A DNA stretch of 48,685 bases from an uncultured Alloprevotella sp. (GTDB lineage: Bacteria > Bacteroidota > Bacteroidia > Bacteroidales > Bacteroidaceae): NCBI GenBank assembly GCA_944320745.1, contig CALUIN010000009.1, positions 1-48,685 of the forward strand. The letters run 5' to 3'. Position 1 is the stretch's first letter. Every line of letters starts with the position of its first letter. Shown here piece after piece: positions 24,970 through 38,484 of the stretch. The notes beneath the pieces were generated by a model. It did no database searches and had not been told where the DNA came from. It saw only the letters and a list, made by a program, of their open reading frames with translations. The translations under genes and the position numbers were made by a program.

Positions 24970-25055
24970 AAAAAAGCGGACATCCCGCCGCCGGGCCGGC
25001 CGTAGGGATGTCCGCTATACCCGCGCCCCTTCCGCCCGGGCGGAAGGGGCGCGGG
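24970..25055 (-). terminator. Double-hairpin terminator of the kinase/FHA operon
   Basis: Reading on the minus strand, an 18+18 base perfect palindrome (25020-25055) comes first. A 12-bp stem follows, AGCGGACATCCC (24975-24986) against 25005-25016, then TTTTTT at 24975-24970. It lies directly beyond the last gene of the 25060-38484 operon. Confidence 0.88.
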
Positions 25056-25059
25056 CGGG

Positions 25060-25698
25060 CTATATGATGATGAATTTCTTGTACTTCTCCTGGATGATGG
25101 TCAGCACGGCGAAGGCGTTGCCGCACTGCACCTTGAGGCTGGCCGAACGCTCCTCCTTCGTCGAGGGGTTCTTCTCCACCTCGATGACGAGCTCGCCGTC
25201 GTCGTTGCGCGAGTAGCTCACCCACTTGGGGGCCTCCACGACCTTCCAGTCCGTGCGGTTGCAGTTGACCTTGACTTTCTTGAAATCGCCTCCTTTTCCC
25301 TTAAACTTCAGGTAGTTGGCCGAGAGGGTGAGCGTCACCTTCCGGTCGCCGCTGCGGGCGGTGTCGCGCGCCGTGGTGTCGGCCGGAGCGTGCTGCGGCG
25401 ACTGGCGGCGGGCAGGCTCCTGCACGGGCTTCTTCCGGCTGCTGCGGAGCTGGGCGATGATATTGCGGCAGGCCTTGATCTGCTGGTCGCAAAGGTTCTT
25501 CTTGGCCTGTGAGTCGTAGCACGCCTTTGCCTTCTGGAACTGCGCGATGGCATTGTTCTGCGAAGCAATAGTCATGGTCTGCTGAAACTTCACGCCTTTG
25601 GCGAAAAGCTGGTCGCACGACGTCTGTGCGGCGGCACGCCCCGTGGAGAGCAGGGCGCAGAGGAGTGCAACGATGAGAATGCTGATTTTCCTGTTCAT
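25060..25698 (-). CDS. Secreted BACON-like protein, last gene of the kinase/FHA operon
   Basis: 212 residues with a signal peptide (MNRKISILIVALLCALLSTG...AAAQ). Residues 26-85 are a helical segment rich in Gln, Lys and Cys (CDQLFAKGVKFQQ, CRNIIAQL), perhaps a TPR-like pair. After a Pro/Thr linker, residues of about 118-205 match the BACON beta-sandwich pattern (LTLSANYLKFKGKGGDFKKV, WKVVEAPKWVSYS, ASLKVQCGNAFAVLTIIQ). BACON domains are thought to bind glycans or mucin; here it may bind a ligand for the operon's receptor kinases, which is inference. Its ATG overlaps the kinase stop codon by four bases (ATGA), so the two are translationally coupled. Confidence 0.82.
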   Translation of the reverse strand: MNRKISILIVALLCALLSTGRAAAQTSCDQLFAKGVKFQQTMTIASQNNAIAQFQKAKACYDSQAKKNLCDQQIKACRNIIAQLRSSRKKPVQEPARRQSPQHAPADTTARDTARSGDRKVTLTLSANYLKFKGKGGDFKKVKVNCNRTDWKVVEAPKWVSYSRNDDGELVIEVEKNPSTKEERSASLKVQCGNAFAVLTIIQEKYKKFIII

Positions 25699-27071
25699 GA
25701 TTGCGGTTTGGATGGTTCTGTTTTCTTTCTTTCGCCATCTGAGGCTGCCGGAGCGGTGCGCCGCAACCGCTCTCTGACGGCGGCGGCGCGGCTCTGGAAC
25801 TCGCCGGAGACGGCCGCGTCGTCGGCAAAGAGGGCGGCCTTCTCGCTGAAGGCGGCGGCGGCGGCGCTCATCTTCGCGCGGAGCGAGTCGAGGCTGGCGC
25901 CGAGGCCGGCGAGCGGGGCGGGCAGGGCGGCGCGGGCGGCGGAGTCCATGCGGGCCACGGCGGACAGGGCCAGGCCGTAGGCGTCGTAGGCCTCGAGGTA
26001 GGCGCGCTCGTAGTATTCGTCGTGGCGGTCGCCCTCGGCCGTCAGGCGGCGGGCCTGCGCGGCCTGCAGGCGGGCTACGCCGAGGAGGGAGTCGTTGAAC
26101 TGGCGGCGCTGCTCGGCCTGCTGGCTAAGGAGGCGCTCCTGGCGGATGCGGTGGCCGTTGTAGGCCAGTCCGGCCACGGCGCACACCAGGATGACCAGTG
26201 CGGCCAGGAGCGGCCAGCGGTAGCGCTGCAGGAAGGACTTCTCGCCGGCAAAGCGGATGGTGCCGCCGGCGAGTGCCGTGCGGGCGTACTGCTCAAGCTG
26301 GGCGGCCGTGGGGCGCTCCCAGGGGTTGGCGCTGAGGCAGAGGGCTACGGTCTTCTTGAGCTGGGCGGACCATTCGCCGCGCAGTTCGGGGACTTCGGCG
26401 CCTTTCTTCTGGAGCAGGCCGCCGTCGCTGCCGAAGGGGACGTCGGCCGTGAGCATCTCGAAGACGGTGGCGCCGAGGGAGTAGATGTCGCTGGCCATGA
26501 TGGGGGTGTTGTCCTTGCCGAAGCGTTCGGGCGCCATGTAGGCCGTGGTGCCGGCGGAGACGAAGGCGGAGCTGAGGCTCTTGCGCAGGGCGGACTTCAG
26601 GTGGGTGCTGACGCCGAAGTCGGTGATGAGGAACTCCCCGTTGTCCGCCACCATGATGTTGTCGGGCTTGATGTCCTGGTGGATGAGGGGCGGATTCATG
26701 GCATGGAGCCAGGCCAGCCCGGTCGCCACGTCGCGCAGCAGGCGCCAGGCCTCGGGCTCGCTGAAGTTGCCCACGCGGCGGGCCAAGCTGCCCTGGCGGC
26801 AGTAGGGGAGGACGAGGTAGGGGCGGCGGTCGCAGGTGTCGTAGTGGAGCGGCCGAAGGAGGTTCTCGTGGTTGGCGCCCACGACGATGGAGAACTCGCG
26901 GGCGAAGACATCGAGCCCGTGGTCGTCGAGGCCGGTGGCGGGGGCGTAGATTTTCAGGGCCACCTCGACGTCGGTCTTGGTGTCCTTGGCCTGCCACACT
27001 TCGGCGAAGCTGCCGCGGCCGAGGAGCCGCTCCAGGAAATAACGGTCGTGAAAAAGTTTCTTTTCTTCCAT
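25695..27071 (-). CDS. Membrane serine/threonine protein kinase (non-RD type)
   Basis: 458 residues. The cytoplasmic kinase domain (about 10-265) has a glycine loop GRGSFAEVW (18-26), the ATP-anchoring lysine K40 in VALK, catalytic loop HQDIKPDN (131-138), DFG 151-153 and APE-like MAPER 179-183. The Arg before the catalytic Asp is Gln, making it a non-RD kinase. A transmembrane helix follows at about 286-305. The exported C-terminal 150 residues are Arg/Gln/Ala-rich helices, probably coiled coil, with no recognised domain. Substrates are likely the FHA proteins and the other kinases of this operon. Confidence 0.93.
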   Translation of the reverse strand: MEEKKLFHDRYFLERLLGRGSFAEVWQAKDTKTDVEVALKIYAPATGLDDHGLDVFAREFSIVVGANHENLLRPLHYDTCDRRPYLVLPYCRQGSLARRVGNFSEPEAWRLLRDVATGLAWLHAMNPPLIHQDIKPDNIMVADNGEFLITDFGVSTHLKSALRKSLSSAFVSAGTTAYMAPERFGKDNTPIMASDIYSLGATVFEMLTADVPFGSDGGLLQKKGAEVPELRGEWSAQLKKTVALCLSANPWERPTAAQLEQYARTALAGGTIRFAGEKSFLQRYRWPLLAALVILVCAVAGLAYNGHRIRQERLLSQQAEQRRQFNDSLLGVARLQAAQARRLTAEGDRHDEYYERAYLEAYDAYGLALSAVARMDSAARAALPAPLAGLGASLDSLRAKMSAAAAAFSEKAALFADDAAVSGEFQSRAAAVRERLRRTAPAASDGERKKTEPSKPQS

Positions 27072-27153
27072 AAGATGGTGCCGGCTTTCCGGCAGGACGG
27101 CCCCTGCCGCCGCGGGGGCGGCACGGGCCGTGCCGAAGGCGCGCCGACGGCGC

Positions 27154-27621
27154 TTACTTGTGCTCGTTGAAGTAGTCGACTACGGTCTCGTAGGCCGCGT
27201 CGAGGCAGCTCATGAAGTCGTAGAAGGTGTACTTGAAGTCCTCCACGGAGTGGCTGTAAATCTCAACGGCGAAGGACATGGTGGAGGAGTTGACGATGGC
27301 CTTGGCGCAGCGGGTGGTGCGGTTGCTCTCGTTGGCCGCCAGGGTGAGCAGGGCGCGCTGCTCGTCCTTGAAGCTGAAGCCGGCGCGGTGGAACTCCAGG
27401 TAGACGCCGGAGTTGCCGGAGAAGGAGAACCAGTAGAGCTCGCCCTCCTTCTTGAACACGAGATCGTCCTCCTCGTCGATGGAGGGGGAGTAGCCCTCTT
27501 CGCTGAGGAACTGCATGAGGGCCGCGCGGTAGCGCTGCTGTTCGGGCGTGAGGTCGTCGGCCCGGAGGCTGGTGGCCAGCAGCATGGCCAATGCCAGCAC
27601 GATGTACTTGAGTTTTTCCAT
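27154..27621 (-). CDS. Small secreted protein of unknown function (possible YbjN-like fold)
   Basis: 155 residues from ATG 27621 (MEKLKYIVLALAMLLATS), a signal peptide cleaved near RAD. A TTG three codons upstream is the only longer in-frame choice. The mature part has the strand order and spacing of YbjN or type III chaperone-like folds: a helix (YRAALMQFLSEEGY), strands DLVFKKEGELYWFSFSG and VYLEFHRAGFSF, then a long helix ending in CLDAAYETVVDYFNEHK. This fold guess rests on pattern only. It lies 19 bp downstream of the YD-repeat kinase and is probably its periplasmic partner or regulator. Confidence 0.7.
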   Translation of the reverse strand: MEKLKYIVLALAMLLATSLRADDLTPEQQRYRAALMQFLSEEGYSPSIDEEDDLVFKKEGELYWFSFSGNSGVYLEFHRAGFSFKDEQRALLTLAANESNRTTRCAKAIVNSSTMSFAVEIYSHSVEDFKYTFYDFMSCLDAAYETVVDYFNEHK

Positions 27622-27640
27622 ATTTCTCAAACATTTAGGA

Positions 27641-30600
27641 CTAAAGGGTGCAGATCAGGCGGTTGGCCCGGTCGGTCATGCGGATGATGAGGGAGACGTT
27701 GGCCGGCAGGCTGAGGGCTTGGCGCAGTCCGGGGCGGACGTTTTGCCGGATGCGATCGCAGAGCTGGGAGAACTTCTCCTCGTCGAGGTTGTACTTGGAG
27801 GCCTCGGCCAGCTGGATGGTCATGACGACGCGGCTGCCGTCGGTCGTGACGGACTGCACGTAGAGCCCGTCCATCACCTGCGAGGGGCACTCGCTGTTGG
27901 CCTGGGCCACGAGGCTGCGCCAGTTGGACTGCGAGGGCTGCGCGGCGGGCTGGACGGAGGGCGCGCTCCGGCCGGCCTGCTGCATCTCGCCCCACTGGGC
28001 GCTGGCCTTGTCGTAATTCTGGTAGGCGAGCTGGCGGCCGGCGGCGTCGTAGAACTTGCGCACGACGGGCGTGCCGCTCTCGTCGTAGCTGACGGTGAGG
28101 CTCTGGAAGCCGGCCTGGCAGTCGGCGGGCCGCCCGGCGGCATCGTAGAAGGAGGTGCGCGTACAGAGCTTCAGGCCGTTGTACTCGTACTTCTCCTGGT
28201 GCACGCCGTAGCTGGTGGCGGGCTTGCCGTCGGTGGCGTAGTAGCGCTTGTTGACGAGGTTGCCGCGCTGGTCGTACTCGAAGGTCTGCTTGTGGAAGCC
28301 GTCGCGGCAGTTCATGGGGCGGTCGTGCTGGTCGAAGGCGGCCTCCATGACCATCTGGGAGCGGCCGTTGTACTCGCGGCGGATAATGGCCACGCCGGAC
28401 TGCGGATTGATGACGTAGTTGCCGTTGCCGTCCTGGGAAGCGTGCAGAATGAGGTTGTTGAGGCGGTCGTAGCGATAGATGAACACGGGGACCCGCTCGG
28501 AGGCCGGGGTGGGCCGCCCGTCGGTGCCGAAGAATCCCTGCCGGACGATGTTGCCCATGGCGTCGTACTCGAAGGTGGTCGAAGCCCAGCCTTCCTTGCA
28601 GGCTATGGGGCGGCTGTCCGTGCCGAAGTTGGAGCACTTGACGCGGTTGCCCTTGGCGTCGTACTCGTTGCGCACGATGGCCACGCCCTCCTCGGCGGTG
28701 AGCACGAGGTGGCCGCCCGTGCCGTAGTAGCAGGTCTCGACGAGCTGGTTGGCGGCGTTGTAGCGACTGGTCTCCTTGCAGACGCCGTTGTAGTTGTCGT
28801 CGGGGCGGCCGGCGGCGTTGTAGAAGCTGGTCTCGGTGCAGTTGTCGAACTGGTCATACCTGTAGCGCGTCTCGAGCCGGTTGGGGGCCAGCCGGCCGTC
28901 GGTCCCGATGGGGCGGTTGATGACGACGTTGCCGCGCTCGTCGCAGGTGTAGTCCGTCCCGGCCCGTCCGTCGACCATCATGGGCTGTCCGTGCAGGCCG
29001 TAGTAGCGCTCGGCCTTGAGGAATCCGCGGCTGTCGTAGGCGTAGGTCACTTTGGCGTAGCCCACGTTGTTGAGGCAGAGCTCGTTGGCGGCGTTGAAGA
29101 ATACGCGCTGGGTTTCGTTTCCGCGGTTGTCGTATTGGATGGTCCATCCGGCCACGTCCTCGTTGCTGTGTACGAGCTGCTCGCCGGCGGGGTCGAAGAA
29201 GGCGAGCTTCGTGACGACGCCGCGCGTGTTGTACTGGTAGCGCATGCGGCAGACGTGGTTGTTGTCGTAGGCTGGCTTGAGGCTGAGGCCGAGGTTGATG
29301 ATTTCGACAAGCATGTCGCGGTCGTTGTAGACGTAGCGCTGGCCTGCCACGCCGTCCTCGTCGAGGCAGGGCTTCCGGTCCGTGCCGTAGTAGACGGCTT
29401 CGACGAGGTTGCCGCGCTCGTCGTATCGGCTGACGATGCCGGCGCAGGGTCCGTTGGTGGGGTAGAGCTTGCCGTCGAGGCCGTAGGACCAGCTCTCGAG
29501 CACGTTGCCGCGGTCGTCGGTCTTGAGTACGAGGCGGCTGCCGTGGTCGGAGGATTCGCAGGGCTTGCCGTCGGCGTCGAAGAAGGTCTGCTCCGTGCAG
29601 AATCCGTTCTCGTCGTTTTTGGCCTCATAGCCGGCGCATCCGGCCGAGGGCACGTAGAAGGGCTGGCTGTCCACGCCCAGGTAGGTGGCGCGGGTGATGA
29701 ATCCGCGGTCGTCGTAGGCGTAGCGGATGCCGGCCACGCCGTTTTTCTTGGGCAGCATGAGCTTGTGGTCGGGGCCTTTGTGATAGGCTTCGGCGATGTT
29801 GCCGTGCTCGTCGTAGACCATTTCATATACGCTCACGCCGTCGTGGTCGTCGTAGGAGGGTTTGCCCTCTACGGTGAAATACTCGGCGCGTATCCAGTTG
29901 TCCTGGTCGTCGTAGAAGAATTTCTTCACGCCCAGTCCCCACTTGGTGGCTTTCGGCTTGCCGTCCTGGCCGATGTATCGGATTTCGGCCACGCGGCCTT
30001 TCTCGTCGTAGGTCATGAGGCGGCCGTAGATGTTGCTCTCGTCGCCCACGGGCGAGTTGCCCACGGTGGCGTAGCGTATGGAGGTGGCGCGTCCCTCGTC
30101 GTCGTAGTCCACGAGCCAGCGGGTGATGCTGCCTTTCTGCGCGAAGTTGTCCTCGATGACGCGGCCGTAGCCCACGGTCTGGTTGGGCAGCACGCGCTCG
30201 GTGTTGTTGCGGTCGTCGTACTGGAAGGTGATGGCGCTGAGGTTCTCGTTGTAGCTCTTCACGTAGAGCACGCGGTCGTTGTGGTCCATCACCTTGATGC
30301 GGCTCACGCGGCCGTCGGAGGTGTACTGTATGGTCTGGTTGATGGGCCGCTCGCTGCGTTCGGACTCGCCGTCGGTGATGACTTTGCCGCGGCTGTTGAC
30401 GTGGGCCACGCGGCGCACCTTTCCGCGGACGAACTCGAAGCGGTAGAGGCGGTGCATGTGGCGGGCGTCCCAGGCCTGCACGCGGCCCACGCCCTGGGGC
30501 ACGCCCCAGCATTCGGTGTAGTCCTTGTAGTAGCGCACCTTCGTGCGGTTATAGTCCCAGAGGAAGATGCCCAGGCACATGAGCACGGAGGCCACGGCAG

Positions 30601-31441
30601 TGGCCACTATGGCGATGAGGTTGCGGTTGGAGCGGCGCTCCCAGGCGCCGGTTTCCCAGTAGAGCTCTATCTTCTGGCGTATCTGTCCGGCGGTGATGCG
30701 CCGGGCGGGATCCTGCTCCAGGCAGGAGAGGATGAGGGCCTTCACCTCGGGCTGAAGGCTGGCGGGCAGTTCGGGCAGGGGTTCGCCCTCGGCCTGTAGC
30801 AGGCCGCCGTGCTCGCCGTAGGGCGGGTTGCCCGTGAGCAGTTCGACGGCCGTGGCGCCGAGCGACCACACGTCGCTGGCGCTCTCGGTGACGCCCTGGA
30901 AGCGTTCGGGCGCCATGTAGGCCCGCGTCCCGCCCGAGGCGGCGCCGGCCTCGGCCGTGTCCGTGCTGGCCACGCTGATGCCGAAGTCCGTCACCAGGAA
31001 GTTGCAGTTGTCGTCGAGCAGGATGTTGTCGGGCTTGATGTCCTGATGGATGATGTGGTGTTCGTGCAGGTATTCCAGGCCGGCGGCCACGTCGTGCAGG
31101 AACTTGAGCACGTCCTGCTCGTCGGCGCGGCCCGCCATGGAGCTGCACGAGCCGTTCTCGCAGTACTGCATCACCAGGTAGGGCCGTCCCTCGAAGATGT
31201 CGTAGCCCGTCGGGGGGAGCAGGTTGGAGTGCTTCATGTTGTACACGGTCGTGAACTCCCGCTCGAAGTTCTGCAGGCCGTAGGAGTCCATCGTGGCGTG
31301 CTGGGAGAAGATTTTCAGCGCCACCACCAGGCGGTTGGCTTTCGTATCGAGTGCCTTCCACACTTCGGCGGACGCGCCGCAGCCCAGCAGTTCGACCAGC
31401 TGGTAGCGGCCGTGGAAGAGGAATCCTTTTTGCAAGTCCAT
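27641..31441 (-). CDS. Receptor-like serine/threonine kinase with about 24 exported YD/RHS-like repeats
   Basis: 1266 residues. Kinase domain about 10-262: glycine loop GCGASAEVW (20-28), K43, HQDIKPDN (132-139, non-RD), DFG 152-154, YMAPER 175-180. Transmembrane helix about 274-295. The remaining exported part is built of about 24 repeats averaging 36-40 residues with a YDxRGN turn followed by a TDGKP-like loop (YDERGNLVEAVYYGTDRKP is one), running from about 345 to 1150. These resemble RHS/YD repeats, which fold as a beta spiral. The final 100 residues after a Gln/Ser/Ala linker may be a separate small domain. It is likely the ligand-sensing kinase of the operon. Confidence 0.9.
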   Translation of the reverse strand: MDLQKGFLFHGRYQLVELLGCGASAEVWKALDTKANRLVVALKIFSQHATMDSYGLQNFEREFTTVYNMKHSNLLPPTGYDIFEGRPYLVMQYCENGSCSSMAGRADEQDVLKFLHDVAAGLEYLHEHHIIHQDIKPDNILLDDNCNFLVTDFGISVASTDTAEAGAASGGTRAYMAPERFQGVTESASDVWSLGATAVELLTGNPPYGEHGGLLQAEGEPLPELPASLQPEVKALILSCLEQDPARRITAGQIRQKIELYWETGAWERRSNRNLIAIVATAVASVLMCLGIFLWDYNRTKVRYYKDYTECWGVPQGVGRVQAWDARHMHRLYRFEFVRGKVRRVAHVNSRGKVITDGESERSERPINQTIQYTSDGRVSRIKVMDHNDRVLYVKSYNENLSAITFQYDDRNNTERVLPNQTVGYGRVIEDNFAQKGSITRWLVDYDDEGRATSIRYATVGNSPVGDESNIYGRLMTYDEKGRVAEIRYIGQDGKPKATKWGLGVKKFFYDDQDNWIRAEYFTVEGKPSYDDHDGVSVYEMVYDEHGNIAEAYHKGPDHKLMLPKKNGVAGIRYAYDDRGFITRATYLGVDSQPFYVPSAGCAGYEAKNDENGFCTEQTFFDADGKPCESSDHGSRLVLKTDDRGNVLESWSYGLDGKLYPTNGPCAGIVSRYDERGNLVEAVYYGTDRKPCLDEDGVAGQRYVYNDRDMLVEIINLGLSLKPAYDNNHVCRMRYQYNTRGVVTKLAFFDPAGEQLVHSNEDVAGWTIQYDNRGNETQRVFFNAANELCLNNVGYAKVTYAYDSRGFLKAERYYGLHGQPMMVDGRAGTDYTCDERGNVVINRPIGTDGRLAPNRLETRYRYDQFDNCTETSFYNAAGRPDDNYNGVCKETSRYNAANQLVETCYYGTGGHLVLTAEEGVAIVRNEYDAKGNRVKCSNFGTDSRPIACKEGWASTTFEYDAMGNIVRQGFFGTDGRPTPASERVPVFIYRYDRLNNLILHASQDGNGNYVINPQSGVAIIRREYNGRSQMVMEAAFDQHDRPMNCRDGFHKQTFEYDQRGNLVNKRYYATDGKPATSYGVHQEKYEYNGLKLCTRTSFYDAAGRPADCQAGFQSLTVSYDESGTPVVRKFYDAAGRQLAYQNYDKASAQWGEMQQAGRSAPSVQPAAQPSQSNWRSLVAQANSECPSQVMDGLYVQSVTTDGSRVVMTIQLAEASKYNLDEEKFSQLCDRIRQNVRPGLRQALSLPANVSLIIRMTDRANRLICTL

Positions 31442-31453
31442 ACGTTTCTCGTT

Positions 31454-32245
31454 TTAGAACATCGACAATATAAAGTAGAGGGACAGGCCCATGACGGCGA
31501 GACCTGCCGCGAAGACTACGATGCCCACGATGGTCCATACGCGCCGGGCTCGCCGGAAGTGGTCGAAGTCGCGGTATTTCCCGCAGTTCCAGGCTATGCG
31601 CGAGCCGTTCATGCCCAGGTAGACGCGCAGCACGAGGTCGCACACCTGGCCCACGTAGGGCACGAGGCCGCAGAGCAGGATGAAGAGGGGCCAATACGTG
31701 CGGTGGCACACGGCCCAGATCCACGAGCAGAAGAAGGCGCCCCAGTTCCAGCGGCGCGTGGCGGCCTCCACCTCGGCGGGGGTGTAGCCTCCGCCGGACG
31801 GGGACACGGGCTTGGGGGGAACAGCCGCCGCTTCCGCCGCTCCGGCGGCGGGCGGCACGTAGCGGTCCGTGGGGCGGCTGCGGCCGGGTTCAGCCGCGCC
31901 GCCGGCCAGGGGGTTGGTCTTGTGGGCCGTGGGGCGGTGGTCAGCCAGGCCGGCCCGGGCGGCTACCGTGGGGCGGCCCACGGTGGGAAAGAAGGCGCGG
32001 ACGCGGTCCCAGGGCAACTCGCAGGTGCCGGCCAGCAGGATGCGGTCGCCGGGGAACACGGTGACGTGGCCGTTGTGCAGGCGCTGGCCGTTGATGAGCG
32101 TCCCGTTGGAACTGTGGTCGAAGAAGAGCAGCGCGCCGTCGCGCAACTCCATGTCGGCGTGCTCGTTGCTCACCGTGTCCCAGCGCGCGTCGACCTGGAT
32201 GTCGCAGCGCGGATCGCGCCCGATGGTGATGATGTTCTTGCTCAT
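31454..32245 (-). CDS. FHA-domain membrane protein
   Basis: 263 residues. An N-terminal FHA domain (1-80) has all the phosphothreonine-binding marks: GR at 9-10, S26-x-x-H29, and SSNGTLING with N47. A Pro/Ala/Thr-rich cytoplasmic linker (85-160) contains several candidate phosphothreonines (VGRPTVAA, HKTNPLAGG). Two or three hydrophobic helices follow (about 168-205 and 237-262), with an amphipathic stretch YWPLFILLCGLVPYVGQ resembling DUF2628-type membrane proteins. It is a plausible membrane scaffold that recruits phosphorylated partners. The downstream kinase starts 12 bp later. Confidence 0.88.
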   Translation of the reverse strand: MSKNIITIGRDPRCDIQVDARWDTVSNEHADMELRDGALLFFDHSSNGTLINGQRLHNGHVTVFPGDRILLAGTCELPWDRVRAFFPTVGRPTVAARAGLADHRPTAHKTNPLAGGAAEPGRSRPTDRYVPPAAGAAEAAAVPPKPVSPSGGGYTPAEVEAATRRWNWGAFFCSWIWAVCHRTYWPLFILLCGLVPYVGQVCDLVLRVYLGMNGSRIAWNCGKYRDFDHFRRARRVWTIVGIVVFAAGLAVMGLSLYFILSMF

Positions 32246-32329
32246 GTGGTGTCGGTTATTGATGTTCGGATGGGATTGTCGGTCCTCCCTTATGACGGGG
32301 TGGGGGGTGGGGGAAAGGGCGGGGCGGCA

Positions 32330-33853
32330 TCAGGCGAAGTTTCCTCCGCCGCTTTGTTCCAGCTCCTTGCTGGACGGGGCGGATTCCGGATTGTTTTCCC
32401 CGCCTTTGTCCTTTTTATCCTCCGGCTTTTTCGCGTTGCCGTCGTTTGCCTTTCCCGCCCCGCCGTTCTGGCCGCCGCCGTTCTGGCCGGCAGGGGGATT
32501 AGCCCCGTCCTGACGGGGCTTATTGCCGTTGCCCGCGGGATTAGTCCCGCCGGGCTTTGCTCCGCCGGCGGGCTGGCCGGGCTGTTTTGCCGGGGCCTTG
32601 GCCTGGTCACCGTCCGCGGGCCGGGAGCCGCCGAACACGTCCTCGAGCACGCCGCCTTTGCCGCCGCCGGCCGGCCGGCCGGGTGCGGCGGCAGGAGCGG
32701 ATGTGCCTGGCTCCGTCGGGGCGGACGGCATGCCCGGTTCGGGAGGCAGCGGTGCGGCGGGCACGCTGTCCCTGCGGCTGGCGACGGAGTCCTTCGCCGC
32801 CGGCTCCTCGCCCGTGGGCCGGAGGAAGAAGTAGTAGCCCGCGCCGCCGGCGCAGAGCAGGACGAAGAGGACGGCCGCCAGGAGCACGGCCAGCAGCCTG
32901 CGGCGGCTGTTGCGGCCGTCGGCGCCGCCGCGCTGTGCGGGCGGCTGCGGGCCGCCGGGGCCGGCGGGCTGCGGTCCGTTCAGGCGGGCCTCGGTCTCGA
33001 TGAAGGCTTCAGGGCGGGGCGCTCCGCCGCCCTGGAGCACCTGGCAGAGGCAGACGGTAACGTTGTCGGCGCCGGCGGCCGCGCAGGCGGCGCCGATGAG
33101 GGCGTCGGCACAGGCGGTCATGTCGTGCTCGTTCTGGCGGAGCACCTGCTCCATCTCGTGGTCACGGATCATGCCGCTCAGTCCGTCGGTGCAGAGCAGG
33201 ATGATGTCGCCGTCGCACACGTCGTAGGGCTTGAGCAGGGATTCGGGCTTGGCCTTCGGTCCGGCGTCGCAGAGGGAGCGGGTGATGATGTTGCTCTCGG
33301 GATAGTCGAAGGCGTCCTCGCGGGTGATGACGCCCTTGTCGACCAGCGTCTGCACGTAGGAGTGGTCCTTCGTAATCTGATGCAGGCCGGTGGCCGGGTT
33401 GTAGATGTAGGCCCGGCTGTCGCCGCACCAGGAGACGTAAAGGCGGCTGCCCAGCACCCATCCCACGACGATGGTGGTCCCCATGCCGCGCGATTCGGGA
33501 TGGGCCTTGGCTTCCTGCTTGATGCGGGCGTCGGCGGCCACGATGGCCTCGTTCATGAATTTCTCGATAGTGTAGCGCGTCTTCATCACCTCGGGCGTGA
33601 GGCGGGCGGCCTGGAACCGCTCCTTGATGGTCTCGATGGCCAGGGCGGAAGCCACCTCGCCGGCGTTCATGCCGCCCATGCCGTCGGCCACGACGAGCAG
33701 GGCGCCCTTTTCGCCGAGCGAGCAGATTTCATTGTTCACCCAGTGCATGTAGGGCAGGGACAGGTCGGAGGCCACCTGGAAGTTGTCCTCGTTGTTCGTG
33801 CGCACCAGTCCGACGTCCGTCTTGGCAGCGACTCTGAATTTTATCGTATTCAT
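32330..33853 (-). CDS. PP2C-type serine/threonine phosphatase with membrane anchor and exported Pro/Gly/Asn-rich tail
   Basis: 507 residues. The PPM/PP2C domain (about 5-270) keeps its metal-binding blocks: RTNNEDNF (18-25), VVADGMGGM (54-62), WCGDSRAYI, LLCTDGLSG and AGADNVTVCL, so it should be active. A Pro/Gly/Arg linker leads to a transmembrane helix (about 320-342; LLAVLLAAVLFVLLCAGG). The exported 165-residue tail is low-complexity and ends in a Lys/Asp/Asn-rich stretch. It probably reverses phosphorylation by the three operon kinases. The start codon overlaps the upstream gene's stop by four bases (ATGA). Confidence 0.93.
   Translation of the reverse strand: MNTIKFRVAAKTDVGLVRTNNEDNFQVASDLSLPYMHWVNNEICSLGEKGALLVVADGMGGMNAGEVASALAIETIKERFQAARLTPEVMKTRYTIEKFMNEAIVAADARIKQEAKAHPESRGMGTTIVVGWVLGSRLYVSWCGDSRAYIYNPATGLHQITKDHSYVQTLVDKGVITREDAFDYPESNIITRSLCDAGPKAKPESLLKPYDVCDGDIILLCTDGLSGMIRDHEMEQVLRQNEHDMTACADALIGAACAAAGADNVTVCLCQVLQGGGAPRPEAFIETEARLNGPQPAGPGGPQPPAQRGGADGRNSRRRLLAVLLAAVLFVLLCAGGAGYYFFLRPTGEEPAAKDSVASRRDSVPAAPLPPEPGMPSAPTEPGTSAPAAAPGRPAGGGKGGVLEDVFGGSRPADGDQAKAPAKQPGQPAGGAKPGGTNPAGNGNKPRQDGANPPAGQNGGGQNGGAGKANDGNAKKPEDKKDKGGENNPESAPSSKELEQSGGGNFA
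32501..32550. repeat. Two small palindromes of the TTAGCCCCGT family inside the PP2C coding tail
   Basis: AGCCCCGTC (32501-32509) pairs with GACGGGGCT (32512-32520), and GCGGGA pairs with TCCCGC around TTAG (32535-32550). Both carry the TTAGCCCCGT or TTAGTCCCGC core seen in intergenic copies. Here they encode part of the low-complexity tail (GTNPAGNGNKPRQDGANP). Confidence 0.5.
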
Positions 33854-34719
33854 GCTTTCTCTTTCTTCTTTCTTTTTTTCTTGTCAGGCTTTGTGGCCGG
33901 GCTGTCCTTGCCGCCGACGGGGGTCAGCGCCCCGCTGGCGGGCGCGCCGGGCGGGTCCTCCGCGGCAAAGGGGCAGCACAGGCTCCACCCGCCGCCGGGG
34001 ACGGGGACCACGATGCCGCACAGGCGGAACTCCACCGTCCCGACACGGGCCACTACGGGCACTACGAACACGCCGCCCAGTACCTGCCGGCCGCCTACGA
34101 GTGCGGGCGGACGCAGGGCGAAGGCGGCCGTGTCCGGGCTCAGGCGGAGCGCGTGACGGTAGGCCACGAAGTCGGCCGCCACGCCTGGGCCGGGCCGGCC
34201 CTCCGTGACGGCCCAGACGAGCCAGCCCTGCTTCTCCCCATAGTAGGGGTCGGCCGGGAAGGCGGAGTCGGGGCTGACGGCTGCGGGGTAGTGGTAGAGC
34301 GCGTCGCCGCAAAGGGGCTGGCGCCCGGCGCCGTCGGGCCGGGCGGGGCTGAACTCCAGGGCGGCCGTGAGGGGGGCAAAGGCGGCCGCGGCGGCCACGG
34401 GCTCGTAGTCCGCGGCGTAGCCTTCGGCCTCGGCGTCGAAGTCCCAGGGCCGCACGGCCGGGGCGGCCAGGCAGTAGCCGCCGGCGACGCGCACGCCCAG
34501 GGCGTAGCCGGCGCCGAACTCCTCGCGGCCGTCGCGGCCGAAGAGGCCGCCGCCCTCGCGGGCGCGGAGTTGGAAGCCCTGGCGGGCGCAGAAGAGGCCG
34601 CCGCGCACGACGGCTTCCACCTGCCGCTGTTCGGCGGACTTCACCACGCGCTGCCCGGCCGACGGGGCGGCCAGGGCGAGCAGCAGCAGGACGGAGAGGA
34701 TGCGGCGCAGGGGATTCAT
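33850..34719 (-). CDS. Secreted protein of unknown function with Lys-rich C-terminus
   Basis: 289 residues with a signal peptide (MNPLRRILSVLLLLALAAPSAG). I recognise no domain. The mature part has repeated short strands rich in Gly, Ala and Val (GAGYALGVRVAGGYCLAAPAV) and the aromatic-rich segment YYGEKQGWLVWAV. It ends in a strongly basic tail (KPDKKKRKKKEKA). Four cysteines are present in the mature protein. It lies between the FHA-protease (26 bp upstream) and PP2C (ATGA overlap), so it is firmly part of the operon and could be a periplasmic partner or substrate of the protease. Confidence 0.75.
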   Translation of the reverse strand: MNPLRRILSVLLLLALAAPSAGQRVVKSAEQRQVEAVVRGGLFCARQGFQLRAREGGGLFGRDGREEFGAGYALGVRVAGGYCLAAPAVRPWDFDAEAEGYAADYEPVAAAAAFAPLTAALEFSPARPDGAGRQPLCGDALYHYPAAVSPDSAFPADPYYGEKQGWLVWAVTEGRPGPGVAADFVAYRHALRLSPDTAAFALRPPALVGGRQVLGGVFVVPVVARVGTVEFRLCGIVVPVPGGGWSLCCPFAAEDPPGAPASGALTPVGGKDSPATKPDKKKRKKKEKA

Positions 34720-34745
34720 GGGAAAAATGATTTATATTTTGGCAA

Positions 34746-36353
34746 TCATGGAATTACGGCGATGGGCACGAAACTGCTCTTCTGATACATGCCGCCGGAG
34801 ACGATGGCCACTACGACCCAGCGGCCGTCCTTCTGCGCGAAGACGGGGCCGCCGGAGTTGCCGCCCTCGGTGTTGTCGTTGGACACCATGATGGTGTTGC
34901 CCAGCTCCGTGCTCAGTCCGTTTTGCGAACAGAGCGCGGTGGAGAGGATGGGATTACCCTGCCCCCAGCCGTGGGGATAGCCCACGATGCTCAGCTGCGT
35001 GCCCTGCTTCAGGTTGACGGAGAGCTCGCGGTCGGCTTCCAGGCCGCCGCTGAAGTTGGTCTCGGCATAGGCATAGTCCGTATAGTCCAGCGAGCCGCAG
35101 ACCAGCTGCGTGCCGGCGGGTATCTGCGCCAGCACTTCTTTTTTCTCGTTCATCACGACGTAGTCTCCCGGAAGGGTGACGATTTCGTCATGGCTGCCGT
35201 CCGAGACGACGGGCGAGTCCTGGTAGGTGCAGGCGAAGGTGAACGAGTCGCTGACGGACGTGCATTTGAAGATAATCTTGGCTTTGCCCTGCACGTAGAG
35301 TATGTTGGCCTGCATCTCGCGGTAGATGGCCAGCGGGTTGGCGCCGTCGGCTGTCACGAGCTGCCCGTCGATAAAGCGGTAGGAATTGGAATAGTAGGGC
35401 GTGAGGACGTGGCGGGCGGAGACGAACTTGCCGTCGGAAAGGAGGAATCCCGTGCCGGTCCATCCGCTGATGGGCTCGTTGTTTTCCAGGGAAACGACCT
35501 GGGCCTGGATGAAGTAGATGTGGGGATGATAGGCCGTGAAGTCCAGGCCCGCCGCGCCGGCGGCCGGCGCGCTGCCGCCCCCTGCCGGCGCGGCGGGAGC
35601 GCCGCCCCCTGCGCCGCCGCGGGAGGGGGGCGTCAGGGGCATAGTGGCCTCGGCGGGTATGCTGCCCTGCAGGCTGTCGAGCAGGCCGCCTTGGTTGTCG
35701 ATAATCTTCTGCTGCTCGGCTATGAGCTTGGCGTTCTTCTCGTTGGCGGCGCGGGCCTCGGCCAGGAGCTTGCTGTTGTCCTGTATCTGCCGGTGCTGGC
35801 GGAAGATGACGAAGCCGCCGGCGCCGGCGCATATCAGCAGGACGGCGGCCAGGGCGGCGATGGCCGTCTTGTAGGGCCGGAGGGCCTGCTGGCGGAAGAG
35901 GCTCAGGCGGCGCGTCAGACCGATGGACCCCACGGTGGCCTTGCGCCCGGTGGGGACGATGAAGCCCAGCTTGGGGCCGTTGACGGAGAGCTGTATCTCG
36001 TCGCCGCTCTGCAGGTACCACTCCGTCTTCACGGGGCGGCCGTTGAGCAGGGTGGTGTTGGTCTGGGAGAGCTGCACGAGCTTCCAGCCGTCGCCGTCGC
36101 GCACGATGGCGGCATGGCGGCGGGAGACGGTCTTGAAACTCTCGTCGAAGCGCACCTGGCAGCGGGCGTCGCGGCCCAGCTCGATGTTGTCCACGATGAT
36201 TTCCTGCGACTCGCCGGCGCGGTGGTACTTGCTGCTCACCTTGTGCTCCAGGATGTAGTACTTGCGGCTGCCGGGGCGGAAGAGCGAGCCCATTCCCGCG
36301 CCGACGGAGCCGGAGAGGGTGCGGCGGTATGGATTGGAGGTTTGGTCGGTCAT
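34746..36353 (-). CDS. FHA-transmembrane-coiled coil-trypsin-like serine protease
   Basis: 535 residues in four parts. The cytoplasmic FHA domain (about 32-132) has GR at 60-61, S77-x-x-H80 and NTTLLNGRPV. A transmembrane helix spans about 163-184, with Arg/Lys on its N-terminal side, which places the N-terminus inside. A coiled coil (about 187-230) and an Ala/Gly/Pro linker follow. The exported chymotrypsin-fold domain (270-535) has H315 in VSARHVL and S500 in EGGNSGGPVF; the Asp is probably D426 in LDYTDYAYA. A phosphopeptide signal in the cytoplasm could thus be coupled to proteolysis in the periplasm. Few described proteases combine FHA and S1 in this order. Confidence 0.9.
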   Translation of the reverse strand: MTDQTSNPYRRTLSGSVGAGMGSLFRPGSRKYYILEHKVSSKYHRAGESQEIIVDNIELGRDARCQVRFDESFKTVSRRHAAIVRDGDGWKLVQLSQTNTTLLNGRPVKTEWYLQSGDEIQLSVNGPKLGFIVPTGRKATVGSIGLTRRLSLFRQQALRPYKTAIAALAAVLLICAGAGGFVIFRQHRQIQDNSKLLAEARAANEKNAKLIAEQQKIIDNQGGLLDSLQGSIPAEATMPLTPPSRGGAGGGAPAAPAGGGSAPAAGAAGLDFTAYHPHIYFIQAQVVSLENNEPISGWTGTGFLLSDGKFVSARHVLTPYYSNSYRFIDGQLVTADGANPLAIYREMQANILYVQGKAKIIFKCTSVSDSFTFACTYQDSPVVSDGSHDEIVTLPGDYVVMNEKKEVLAQIPAGTQLVCGSLDYTDYAYAETNFSGGLEADRELSVNLKQGTQLSIVGYPHGWGQGNPILSTALCSQNGLSTELGNTIMVSNDNTEGGNSGGPVFAQKDGRWVVVAIVSGGMYQKSSFVPIAVIP

Positions 36354-36389
36354 GGTGTCGGATAGATTTGAGGGTGAAAGGGGAGGGGG

Positions 36390-37730
36390 TCAATAGCCTT
36401 CGGCGCGCAGTTTCGCGTCGCCTATGGAGATGATGTCGCCGGGTGCGAAGGGGAGGCCGTCCGGCCCCACCTCGCGGGAGTTGACGAACGTGCCGTTGGT
36501 GGAGCGCCGCCAGCCGCCCGTGCCGTAGCGGTCCCACTGTCCGTCGCGGATGATCCAGGTGCCGCGGTCATAGTCGAGCTCGAGCGTGCAGTGCTTGCGG
36601 GAGATGTAGCAGCTCTCCTCCTCGGTGATGGCGATGTCGTTGTCCGCGGTGCTGTCGCGGCGGCCCATGCGGAGGATGGCGCTGTTGCCTCTGAGGAGGC
36701 TGTCCAGGTAGTAGACGCGGCCGTAGTCCTCGCCCTGCATGACGCGCAGCAGGACGCCGTTGACGATGCGCGTCTGGAAGTCGCGGTGCTCCTCGGCGGG
36801 CGGCTCGTGGCGCTGGGCGTGGGGCACGAGCCGGAGCACGTCGTCGGCCGTCTGGAGCCGCTCCTGGAAGCGGGGGACGAGGCAGCCCTCGATGATCGGC
36901 GCCCACTCGCGTCCGCCCTCAGTCTGGAACAGGCTGCGGCGGTCCCAGTCGCCGGCCTTCCCGCGGCGGATGTAGGGGACGAGGTCGCCCTCCGAATCCA
37001 GCGGGCCGAAGGGCAGGCTGCCCGTCACCATCTGGTACATCATGACGCCGAAGGAGAAGATGTCCGTCGTGGGCAGCACGGTGGCGTCGCGCTGGGGGTT
37101 GAGCTGCTCGGGCGGCATGTAGGCGTAGGTGCCGAATATCTGTTTCGGCTTGCCGCGGAAGTTGCGCTCGGTCATGCGCTTGTTGCGGTCGCCGGAGATG
37201 CCGAAGTCCGTCAGCGCGTAGTCGCCGTTCTCCTTCACGAGGACGTTTTCGGGCTTCAGGTCGCGGTGGACCTTGCCGCGCTGGTGGAGGGCCTTGAGGC
37301 CGAGCAGCACGTGCGTGGCCATCTTGGAGAGATCCAGGTCGCGGCGGCCCACGGCCTGGAGCAGGTCGCCCCCCGGGCAGAACTCCATGACGATGTAGGG
37401 GTTGCCCGCCGTCTGGCCGTGGGTCACGGCCCTGACCAGGTAGGGGCTGTCGATGCGGCCCGTCTCGAACTCCATGTCGAAGCGCGCCATGAGCGCGCCG
37501 CGGATGTCGGCCGGCACCTCCCAGAGCTTCAGCAGCTTCAGGGCGTAGATGTCGCCCTGGGCGTCGCGCACGGCGTAGACCACGCCGAACGAGCCCTCGC
37601 CCAGCGTCCGCTCCACGCGGTACTGGCGGTCGATGACGTCGGCCGGGGCAAACTGGCAGCGGTCCACGCCGCCCGGCGGCGGCGTGCCTGCCCCGTTTCC
37701 GCCGGCCGCGCCGGGACGGTAATTATTCAT
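36390..37730 (-). CDS. Soluble serine/threonine kinase with C-terminal FHA domain
   Basis: 446 residues started at MNNYRPGAAGG, whose codons overlap the end of the upstream gene by 8 bp; the in-frame extension upstream lies inside that gene. The kinase domain (38-305) is canonical: GEGSFGVVY 44-52, K65 in ALK, HRDLKPEN 155-162 (an RD kinase), DFG 175-177, PPE 206-208. A C-terminal FHA domain (about 330-446) shows RMGRRD, SRKHC and STNGTFVN. There is no membrane segment. Kinase plus FHA in one chain suggests autophosphorylation followed by docking on phosphorylated partners. It is the only RD-type kinase of the three. Confidence 0.94.
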   Translation of the reverse strand: MNNYRPGAAGGNGAGTPPPGGVDRCQFAPADVIDRQYRVERTLGEGSFGVVYAVRDAQGDIYALKLLKLWEVPADIRGALMARFDMEFETGRIDSPYLVRAVTHGQTAGNPYIVMEFCPGGDLLQAVGRRDLDLSKMATHVLLGLKALHQRGKVHRDLKPENVLVKENGDYALTDFGISGDRNKRMTERNFRGKPKQIFGTYAYMPPEQLNPQRDATVLPTTDIFSFGVMMYQMVTGSLPFGPLDSEGDLVPYIRRGKAGDWDRRSLFQTEGGREWAPIIEGCLVPRFQERLQTADDVLRLVPHAQRHEPPAEEHRDFQTRIVNGVLLRVMQGEDYGRVYYLDSLLRGNSAILRMGRRDSTADNDIAITEEESCYISRKHCTLELDYDRGTWIIRDGQWDRYGTGGWRRSTNGTFVNSREVGPDGLPFAPGDIISIGDAKLRAEGY

Positions 37731-38484
37731 GGAACTCAAACAAGCGGTTGCCCAACAGGATGAGGTCGCCATCGTGCAGCTCGGTGCGGCGCGCGGCCTG
37801 GACGAAGGTGGTGCGCTGCTCGCTCGTGTCCTCTATGTACCAGCGGCCGTCCACACGGCTGACCACGGCCTGCTGCCGCGACGTGATGGAGGGATTGCCT
37901 TCCTCCGTGTTGGCGCGGTTGAGCGTGACGCTCTCGCCCTCATACTCCCGCTCCTCCAGCTCGTGGCGCTCGTTCTGCCGCTTGACGGGCTTCAGCACGA
38001 AGCCGGGCTCGGAGAGCACGTCCTGCATGTAGGGATTCACCGTCCCGCCGAACTTGCCGCCACCCAAGGGGCGCGTCGGCTGGCGCGGGGCCGCGGGGCG
38101 CTCGTCGGCGAAGCGCGGCTGCCGGTATTCGGAAACGGGCTGCCCGGAGAGCTGATAGTTGCAGTGCGGACACTTCTCCACCCCGCTCCGCAGCGGATAG
38201 CCGCAGCGCGGACACTTCTGGCCCTCGCCGCCCGGAGCGGCCGCTCCGCCGCCTCCGGCCGGGCCGAACACGTCCTCCTCGCGCACCGTCTGCTGACCGC
38301 CTGCCACGGGAGGCACGGGGGGAGCGGGGGGTACGGCTCCGCCGCCCGCTCCCGGAACGGGCGGCACGACGTCCGCGGCCGGAACGGGCGGCACGACGTC
38401 CGCGGCCGCCTCGAGCGGACTGTGGCACTTCACGCAAAACTTCTCTTCCGGCTTATTGGGCCAACCACAATTCTTGCAACGCAT
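37723..38484 (-). CDS. Double zinc-ribbon FHA-domain protein, first gene of the operon
   Basis: 253 residues. Two CxxC...CxxC zinc ribbons lie at C3/C6/C17/C20 and C91/C94/C105/C108, separated by a Pro/Val-rich linker that holds an exact 27-bp tandem duplication. A conserved-looking peptide GGTVNPYMQDVL (146-157) precedes the C-terminal FHA domain (about 165-253; LNRANTEEGNPSITSRQQAVV, TSEQRTTFVQA). The FHA lacks the canonical GR near its start and the NG pair (it has EQRTTF), so phosphopeptide binding is less certain than in its neighbours. The protein is probably cytoplasmic, an adaptor and substrate for the kinase encoded next. Confidence 0.88.
   Translation of the reverse strand: MRCKNCGWPNKPEEKFCVKCHSPLEAAADVVPPVPAADVVPPVPGAGGGAVPPAPPVPPVAGGQQTVREEDVFGPAGGGGAAAPGGEGQKCPRCGYPLRSGVEKCPHCNYQLSGQPVSEYRQPRFADERPAAPRQPTRPLGGGKFGGTVNPYMQDVLSEPGFVLKPVKRQNERHELEEREYEGESVTLNRANTEEGNPSITSRQQAVVSRVDGRWYIEDTSEQRTTFVQAARRTELHDGDLILLGNRLFEFHE
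38354..38407. repeat. 27-bp tandem duplication in the zinc-ribbon FHA gene
   Basis: Two exact 27-base copies (38354-38380 and 38381-38407) encode the doubled peptide AADVVPPVP in the linker between the zinc ribbons. This points to recent slippage or unequal exchange. Confidence 0.85.

Follow-up and report, generated by a model that had tools for sequence, protein, structure and literature searches.

The window analysed here is a 48,685-nucleotide stretch of DNA from an uncultured Alloprevotella sp. (CALUIN010000009.1; contig C9 of a 2.15 Mb genome that is 84% complete). Between positions 25060 and 38484 it carries ten genes that combine Ser/Thr kinases, FHA domains and a PP2C phosphatase with a membrane-anchored, trypsin-like protease. 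We found that this ten-gene set is one variant of a system whose conserved core comprises four to five genes, which encode a zinc-ribbon FHA protein (ZF), a soluble kinase-FHA protein (KF), a membrane FHA-protease (FP), a PP2C phosphatase (PP) and, in many loci, a secreted protein (S4). The gene set, the intact catalytic residues, the topology judged from hydropathy and the co-inheritance of the core can be read from the sequence. By analogy, the best reading is that the system would resemble the threonine phosphorylation switch of type VI secretion systems (T6SS), uncoupled from the T6SS and here gating a periplasmic protease through FHA domains. We put the chance that it is a threonine-phosphorylation switch controlling an envelope protease in Bacteroidales at about even, and every causal step in it is inferred.

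Conserved core and operon layout

Counting the window's own genome, searches detected FP in 3 of 151 family genomes, 13 of 393 order genomes and 3 of 395 genomes across the phylum; none of the eight same-genus genomes listed had it. When two conserved FP peptides were used to scan GTDB species genomes, 163 stretches and at least 79 confirmed loci were obtained, all anchored on FP. Because they were found through FP peptides, these loci say nothing about core genes without FP. By label, the loci are Bacteroidales-type except L018, which holds a near-complete operon like that of the window but sits on a Clostridia-labelled contig; this contig may come from Bacteroidales and have been misbinned. 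Four assemblies hold two loci each (L016/L068, L017/L044, L053/L081 and L059/L083).

A six-frame search of the 79 loci with profiles built from them (E 1e-5, adjacency not required) detected FP, the anchor, in 79, PP in 78, ZF in 72 and S4 in 56, as well as TolQ-like proteins in 10 and ExbD-like proteins in 9. In the seven loci where ZF was not detected, FP lies at most 1.4 kb from the contig start (five loci) or within 3 kb of it (two loci). Gaps within the core have a median of 13 bp, and 299 of 333 are 60 bp or shorter. ZF, KF, FP and PP occur together in 11 of the 12 order genomes from the FP search, two of which are the same contigs as named loci; their order varies, for example FP-S4-PP-ZF-KF. 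The twelfth genome (G393) has only an FP-like and a KT-like match (KT being a membrane kinase of the window). One phylum-level relative, L132, has the arrangement TolQ-ExbD-FP-PP-ZF-KF-KT. When the order was searched with S4, it was found in 10 of 393 genomes, all among the 13 with FP (hypergeometric 1.3e-17); without the three genomes that feed both alignments, the co-occurrence is 7 of 7 (4.7e-13). The 79 loci, and the separate genome searches for S4 and FP, thus refute chance-level co-occurrence for the core.

The original prediction described a self-contained device of ten genes. What holds is a co-inherited write/read/erase unit that spans the inner membrane and includes an intact periplasmic trypsin-like protease; the full set is not fixed. 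Labels based on open reading frames (ORFs) place KF in 72 and KT in 67 of the 79 loci, but the FHA membrane protein F6 in only 19 and KR, a membrane kinase with an RHS-like ectodomain, in only 8. A greedy ORF picker, which conceals some genes (in the window too), underlies the counts for KF, KT, KR, F6 and BACON proteins. Nine loci (L071, L055, L020, L025, L040, L120, L121, L132 and L133), among them both relatives detected at phylum level only, have two further genes within the core, one for a MotA/ExbB-type proton channel and one for a coiled-coil ExbD-like protein.

All ten ORFs of the window lie on the minus strand at the positions first proposed, with gaps of 36, 26, 84, 12, 10 and 82 bp and overlaps of 4, 4 and 8 bp; the 8-bp overlap holds if KF starts at Met15 (37730), the longest ORF reaching 37772. 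The tight packing foreseen for these genes and the terminal double hairpin with a T-run agree with the coordinates, spacing and folding. Support for the terminator comes from its folding energy and not from the consensus scan, because shuffled sequences gave more sites than the real one (10.1 versus 8 overall). On the minus strand, the scan marked two terminator-like sites, the operon 3' end and one within gene 31454. The GC fraction of the operon is 0.670, compared with 0.674 and 0.655 for the window flanks.

A Pfam scan of the ten products found the three kinases, four FHA domains, PP2C and FHA-protease where they had been expected (Table 1). Hydropathy gave a membrane helix in five products (FP, PP, F6, KR and KT) where four had been proposed, with a single transmembrane (TM) helix in FP, PP, KR and KT. 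As for the three partners thought to be secreted, the YbjN-like product has no strong signal segment, no hydropathy segment exceeding the threshold, and S4 is a predicted pseudoprotease. The window's genome contains a further FHA domain (L136:8496-8720, genome G000, contig C48) without operon-family genes around it.

Table 1. Features of the operon, in the order of transcription.
Feature	Positions	Strand	Evidence
ZF: double zinc ribbon and degenerate FHA, cytoplasmic; operon gene 1	37723..38484	-	Pfam Zn_Ribbon_1 1.4e-11, DZR 7.4e-8, FHA 5.8e-6
KF: soluble Ser/Thr kinase with C-terminal FHA	36390..37730	-	Pkinase 8.1e-40, FHA 1.7e-12
FP: cytoplasmic FHA, TM helix 165-183, linker, periplasmic trypsin-like protease	34746..36353	-	FHA 1.1e-14, Trypsin_2 1.2e-8, Trypsin 4.7e-7
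S4: secreted protein, predicted pseudoprotease of the PA clan (chymotrypsin fold); LTP motif, C-terminal tail rich in Lys	33850..34719	-	AlphaFold models
PP: PP2C phosphatase, TM helix 320-338, periplasmic tail	32330..33853	-	PP2C 6.9e-15; Stp1 217 bits, below cut-off 230
F6: FHA and C-terminal membrane domain	31454..32245	-	FHA 2.3e-13; two strong helices, 187-205 and 242-260
KR: membrane Ser/Thr kinase with long periplasmic RHS-like repeat ectodomain	27641..31441	-	Pkinase 1.8e-44, RHS_repeat 7.2e-8; TM helix 275-293
YbjN-like protein, probably exported	27154..27630	-	YbjN 3e-5, above cut-off; signal peptide judged by eye
KT: membrane Ser/Thr kinase	25695..27071	-	Pkinase 3.4e-41; TM helix 286-304
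BACON-domain protein, secreted	25060..25698	-	BACON 6e-9
Terminator: double hairpin and T-run	24970..25057	-	Fold -71.6 kcal/mol, z -6.9; terminator-like site 24989-24975

Protease, predicted pseudoprotease and signalling components

The Pfam matches of FP all lie above cut-off, with PF13365 and PF00089 forming the protease part. Having a trypsin-like domain with a His-Asp-Ser triad, FP is by sequence a predicted PA-clan serine protease. Of 66 long relatives, 59 keep the whole triad (H315/D426/S500), and the FHA residues G, R, S, H, N and G of the GR, SxxH and NG motifs are conserved in 76-77 of 77 ungapped rows. DegS/HtrA-type enzymes are membrane-anchored periplasmic trypsin-like proteases with a single TM helix. 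FP shares this arrangement, but the Pfam scan (E 0.05) finds no PDZ domain in it, its protease match stops near the C-terminus, and its cytoplasmic FHA domain suggests inside-out control by phosphorylation. The protease form is present in Odoribacter laneus YIT 12061, Palleniella intestinalis PINT, Barnesiella sp. An22 and Bacteroides sp. 519, while in Bacteroides faecis MAJ27 the triad is lost. At L064, in Phocaeicola sartorii, KF, FP and the kinases look split into adjacent ORFs, perhaps through decay or draft-sequence errors.

S4, encoded next to FP, has no Pfam or NCBIfam match, and its profile found no significant match among PDB sequences. Two diverged members were modelled with AlphaFold (pLDDT 85.2 and 83.4). 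The predicted models have the chymotrypsin-like double barrel of the PA clan and match PA-clan proteases, including DegS/HtrA structures. Across 55 sequences, no His or Cys column reaches 40%; where the GG of S4 is paired by eye with the GNSGG of the protease, 42 of the 55 have Leu, Ile or Val, and conserved Ser (34/55) and Asp (48/55) residues stand at other positions. S4 thus lacks the conserved His plus Ser or Cys of an active PA-clan protease. Because the predicted fold is chymotrypsin-like and no histidine is conserved, S4 looks like a pseudoprotease encoded beside the active-looking FP.

Among the cytoplasmic components, KF retains the catalytic Lys, the HRD Asp and the DFG Asp in every ungapped row of an alignment of 74. 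The five Asp columns of the PP2C motifs, which we take to have a metal role, are conserved in 77, 77, 77, 75 and 75 of 77 PP sequences, the remainder being gaps. In ZF, each of the eight zinc-ribbon Cys is conserved in all, or all but one, of the ungapped relatives. Its FHA domain keeps the Arg and Ser of the phosphothreonine-binding motifs (GR, SxxH, NG), but Gln stands where the His would be in 56 of 64 ungapped relatives, and the alignment, inspected by eye, has no NG at the expected place. For these two reasons, the FHA domain of ZF probably does not bind phosphothreonine in the usual way. Four FHA readers had been proposed; Pfam recognises all four domains, but that of ZF is without the usual His and Asn-Gly. 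A [LIVMF]TP[ILV] motif occurs in the tails of S4 (window:33850-33930) and PP2C and before the FHA domain of ZF, in relatives too, several-fold above the shuffled expectation.

The genes around the core are more variable. Of 87 membrane kinases, the window's included, 86 match Pkinase and most match kinase families only; domains added in some are FGE-sulfatase (7), MORN (3), YfiO (3) and WG (2). A 987-residue kinase-RHS stretch gave no significant match among PDB sequences. BACON-type partners are labelled in 15 of the 79 loci, and BACON/barrel-type partners in 24. Among 67 other operon proteins, hand-picked from 140 listed, we recorded Sel1 (5), TPR (5), WG (4), outer-membrane barrels (4) and LRR (2) among the 25 of 52 families listed. 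Judged from these sequences, the varied periphery is what would be expected if sensing modules are exchanged around a core that stays the same.

Sister subtype and alternative explanations

In a sister subtype of the system, FP is short (317-417 aa) and has no triad (L075, L076, L080 and L082-L086), or is long with the triad lost (L069). A TssR-like family accompanies it in 8 of the 79 loci (L069, L075, L076, L080, L082, L083, L084 and L086). The three members scanned all match TssR_VWA above cut-off (6.1e-12, 1.9e-13 and 4.6e-17); a search of PDB sequences with the TssR-like protein gave nothing significant. An ABC ATPase family is encoded in five loci and an FtsX-permease family in four (for each family, one member was scanned). 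The membrane complex of the T6SSiii includes TssR, a lipoprotein that bears a vWA domain (parts of PMC10781749). The subtype therefore shares a TssR-like vWA protein with the TssNQOPR complex, but such a protein is absent from the window, and TssC (PF17541) was not found in 11 sister-subtype genomes (eight with the TssR-like family; completeness not stated). TssC occurs in 2 of 19 genomes tested, both with the protease form, and in none of 14 control genomes of the same search. The window's genome, which is 84% complete, yielded no TssC, and a T6SSiii there was rejected on that ground. The early statement that no T6SS or vWA gene is present accordingly holds for the window and fails for the family as a whole.

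PpkA, PppA and Fha, with TagQRST, control the assembly of the H1-T6SS (parts of PMC10482370). As in this threonine phosphorylation pathway, a membrane Ser/Thr kinase, a PP2C and an FHA protein are encoded together; some relatives have FGE-sulfatase (SUMF-type) sensor parts, and the sister subtype has the ABC ATPase and FtsX permease. TagR is of the SUMF type. The operon differs in its FHA domain fused to a membrane protease, in S4, ZF and the extra soluble kinase KF, and in having no T6SS gene above cut-off, with no TssC found in 17 of the 19 genomes tested. Because no linkage to T6SS genes was found, it does not belong to that pathway.

The core could still be the regulator or assembly module of a T6SS-derived or T6SS-like envelope machine, the protease being an accessory that remodels the envelope for assembly. 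The TssR-like proteins point in this direction, as do the ABC ATPase and FtsX permease, which recall TagTS beside PpkA/PppA/Fha in the H1-T6SS (parts of PMC10482370), and the MotA/ExbB-type gene in 10 of 79 loci. However, none of the ten products scored above cut-off for any T6SS family, the TagH model matches F6 (43 of 120 bits) and FP only through their FHA domains, and the TssC results speak against such a machine in the sister subtype and the window's genome alike. We consider this explanation unlikely.

An anti-phage function, with kinases sensing infection and the protease or phosphorylation killing or arresting the cell, would suit the patchy occurrence of FP in the family and order. 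Kinase-FHA/PP2C defence is known as KKP (PfpC, a PP2C; PfkA, a kinase with a cold-shock domain, CSD; PfkB, a kinase-FHA protein; parts of PMC11341870). The operon likewise co-encodes PP2C and kinase-FHA proteins, but it has no cold-shock kinase (no cold-shock domain in the Pfam scan at E 0.05), its gene order is different, and it has membrane kinases and a protease. The three kinases match PADLOC kinase models, FP matches RT-Protease_XI (3.9e-11) and the TolQ-like protein of relatives matches ZorA2 (6.6e-6), but these matches track generic kinase, trypsin and MotA domains. The operon kinases are set apart from BREX PglW and MADS MAD6 by scores far below the curated NCBIfam cut-offs (PglW at most 56 of 990 bits, MAD6 at most 139 of 460 bits), and unlike MoxR-vWA conflict systems, the ten products include neither MoxR AAA+ nor vWA proteins in the Pfam scan. 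No FP relatives were found in the viral contigs, plasmids and phages searched. Of the 449 flanking ORFs, 281 encode products of 200-800 aa; we scanned 126 of these, without a matched control. At 1e-20, each PADLOC family had one or two matches among the 25 of 32 families listed, and no clear defence or mobile theme was seen among the families listed. A known defence system was rejected, the PADLOC and NCBIfam models not supporting one, and a defence role appears improbable.

Glycan or nutrient sensing, in which BACON and outer-membrane partners would bind polysaccharide and kinases tune glycan use, also earns little credence: BACON partners are present and glycoside-hydrolase-like genes, recognised by eye, adjoin the window operon, but Sel1, TPR or WG partners are equally frequent and the flanking proteins contain no recurrent polysaccharide-utilisation family among the 25 of 139 families listed.

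Proposed mechanism and significance

In the threonine-phosphorylation switch that we propose, a membrane kinase would sense a ligand or damage in the envelope, in many cases together with a secreted or outer-membrane partner encoded in the same locus. The membrane kinase (KT) and the soluble KF would then phosphorylate threonines on core proteins, and FHA domains would bind these marks, clustering FP at the inner membrane. Clustering may alter the activity of the periplasmic protease across the single TM helix and linker. S4, with the same predicted fold, might pair with or cap the FP protease as a cofactor, inhibitor or substrate adaptor, and PP would reset the switch. In the sister subtype, the same core accompanies a TssR-like envelope protein in place of an intact protease.

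Several observations weigh against this mechanism. FHA binding to operon proteins and the response of the protease are inferred only. The phylum-level relative L133 reads TolQ-ExbD-FP-PP, neither ZF nor KF appearing in the fetched stretch, and most membrane-kinase ectodomains are without a family match. The structural matches of S4 never fell below E 0.001 in Foldseek, with TM-scores of 0.23-0.54 and root-mean-square deviations often above 6 Å in the rows shown, and hhalign gave probabilities of only 11-20%. S4 is associated with the state of the FP triad on raw counts (table 53/1/6/6, Fisher 6.5e-5, relatedness ignored), but a quick tree left three supported independent pairs, about two of them concordant (sign test 0.5), with L014 scored as lacking S4, which the six-frame search later found there. 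In one supported nine-row clade, five loci have an intact triad and no S4; conversely, L060 has S4 and a lost triad.

A broader proposition joins two parts: an inside-out switch, whose FHA domains would read cytoplasmic Ser/Thr phosphorylation and act through a single TM helix on the periplasmic protease, with S4 as dedicated regulator, and a plug-in controller, the core driving a TssR-like envelope complex in T6SS-free cells elsewhere in Bacteroidales. We offer it tentatively, and would sooner doubt than accept it as a whole.

Kinase-FHA-PP2C switches control secretion machines in Proteobacteria. This type of signalling is known, and a protease output is unusual. The expectation that no described system has a matching gene set was upheld by a literature search, which found no earlier description of the gene cluster, most subscription papers lying beyond its scope. 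New here are the predicted S4 pseudoprotease, the degenerate FHA domain of ZF and the sister subtype with a TssR-like vWA protein in genomes where TssC was not found; TssR-like proteins thereby gain a context outside the T6SS. The named carrier strains bring the protease form within experimental reach. If the proposed switch is real, gut Bacteroidales would use the same switch logic as a portable controller, linked to a membrane protease and its pseudoprotease partner, and it would offer a testable route from cytoplasmic phosphorylation to periplasmic proteolysis.

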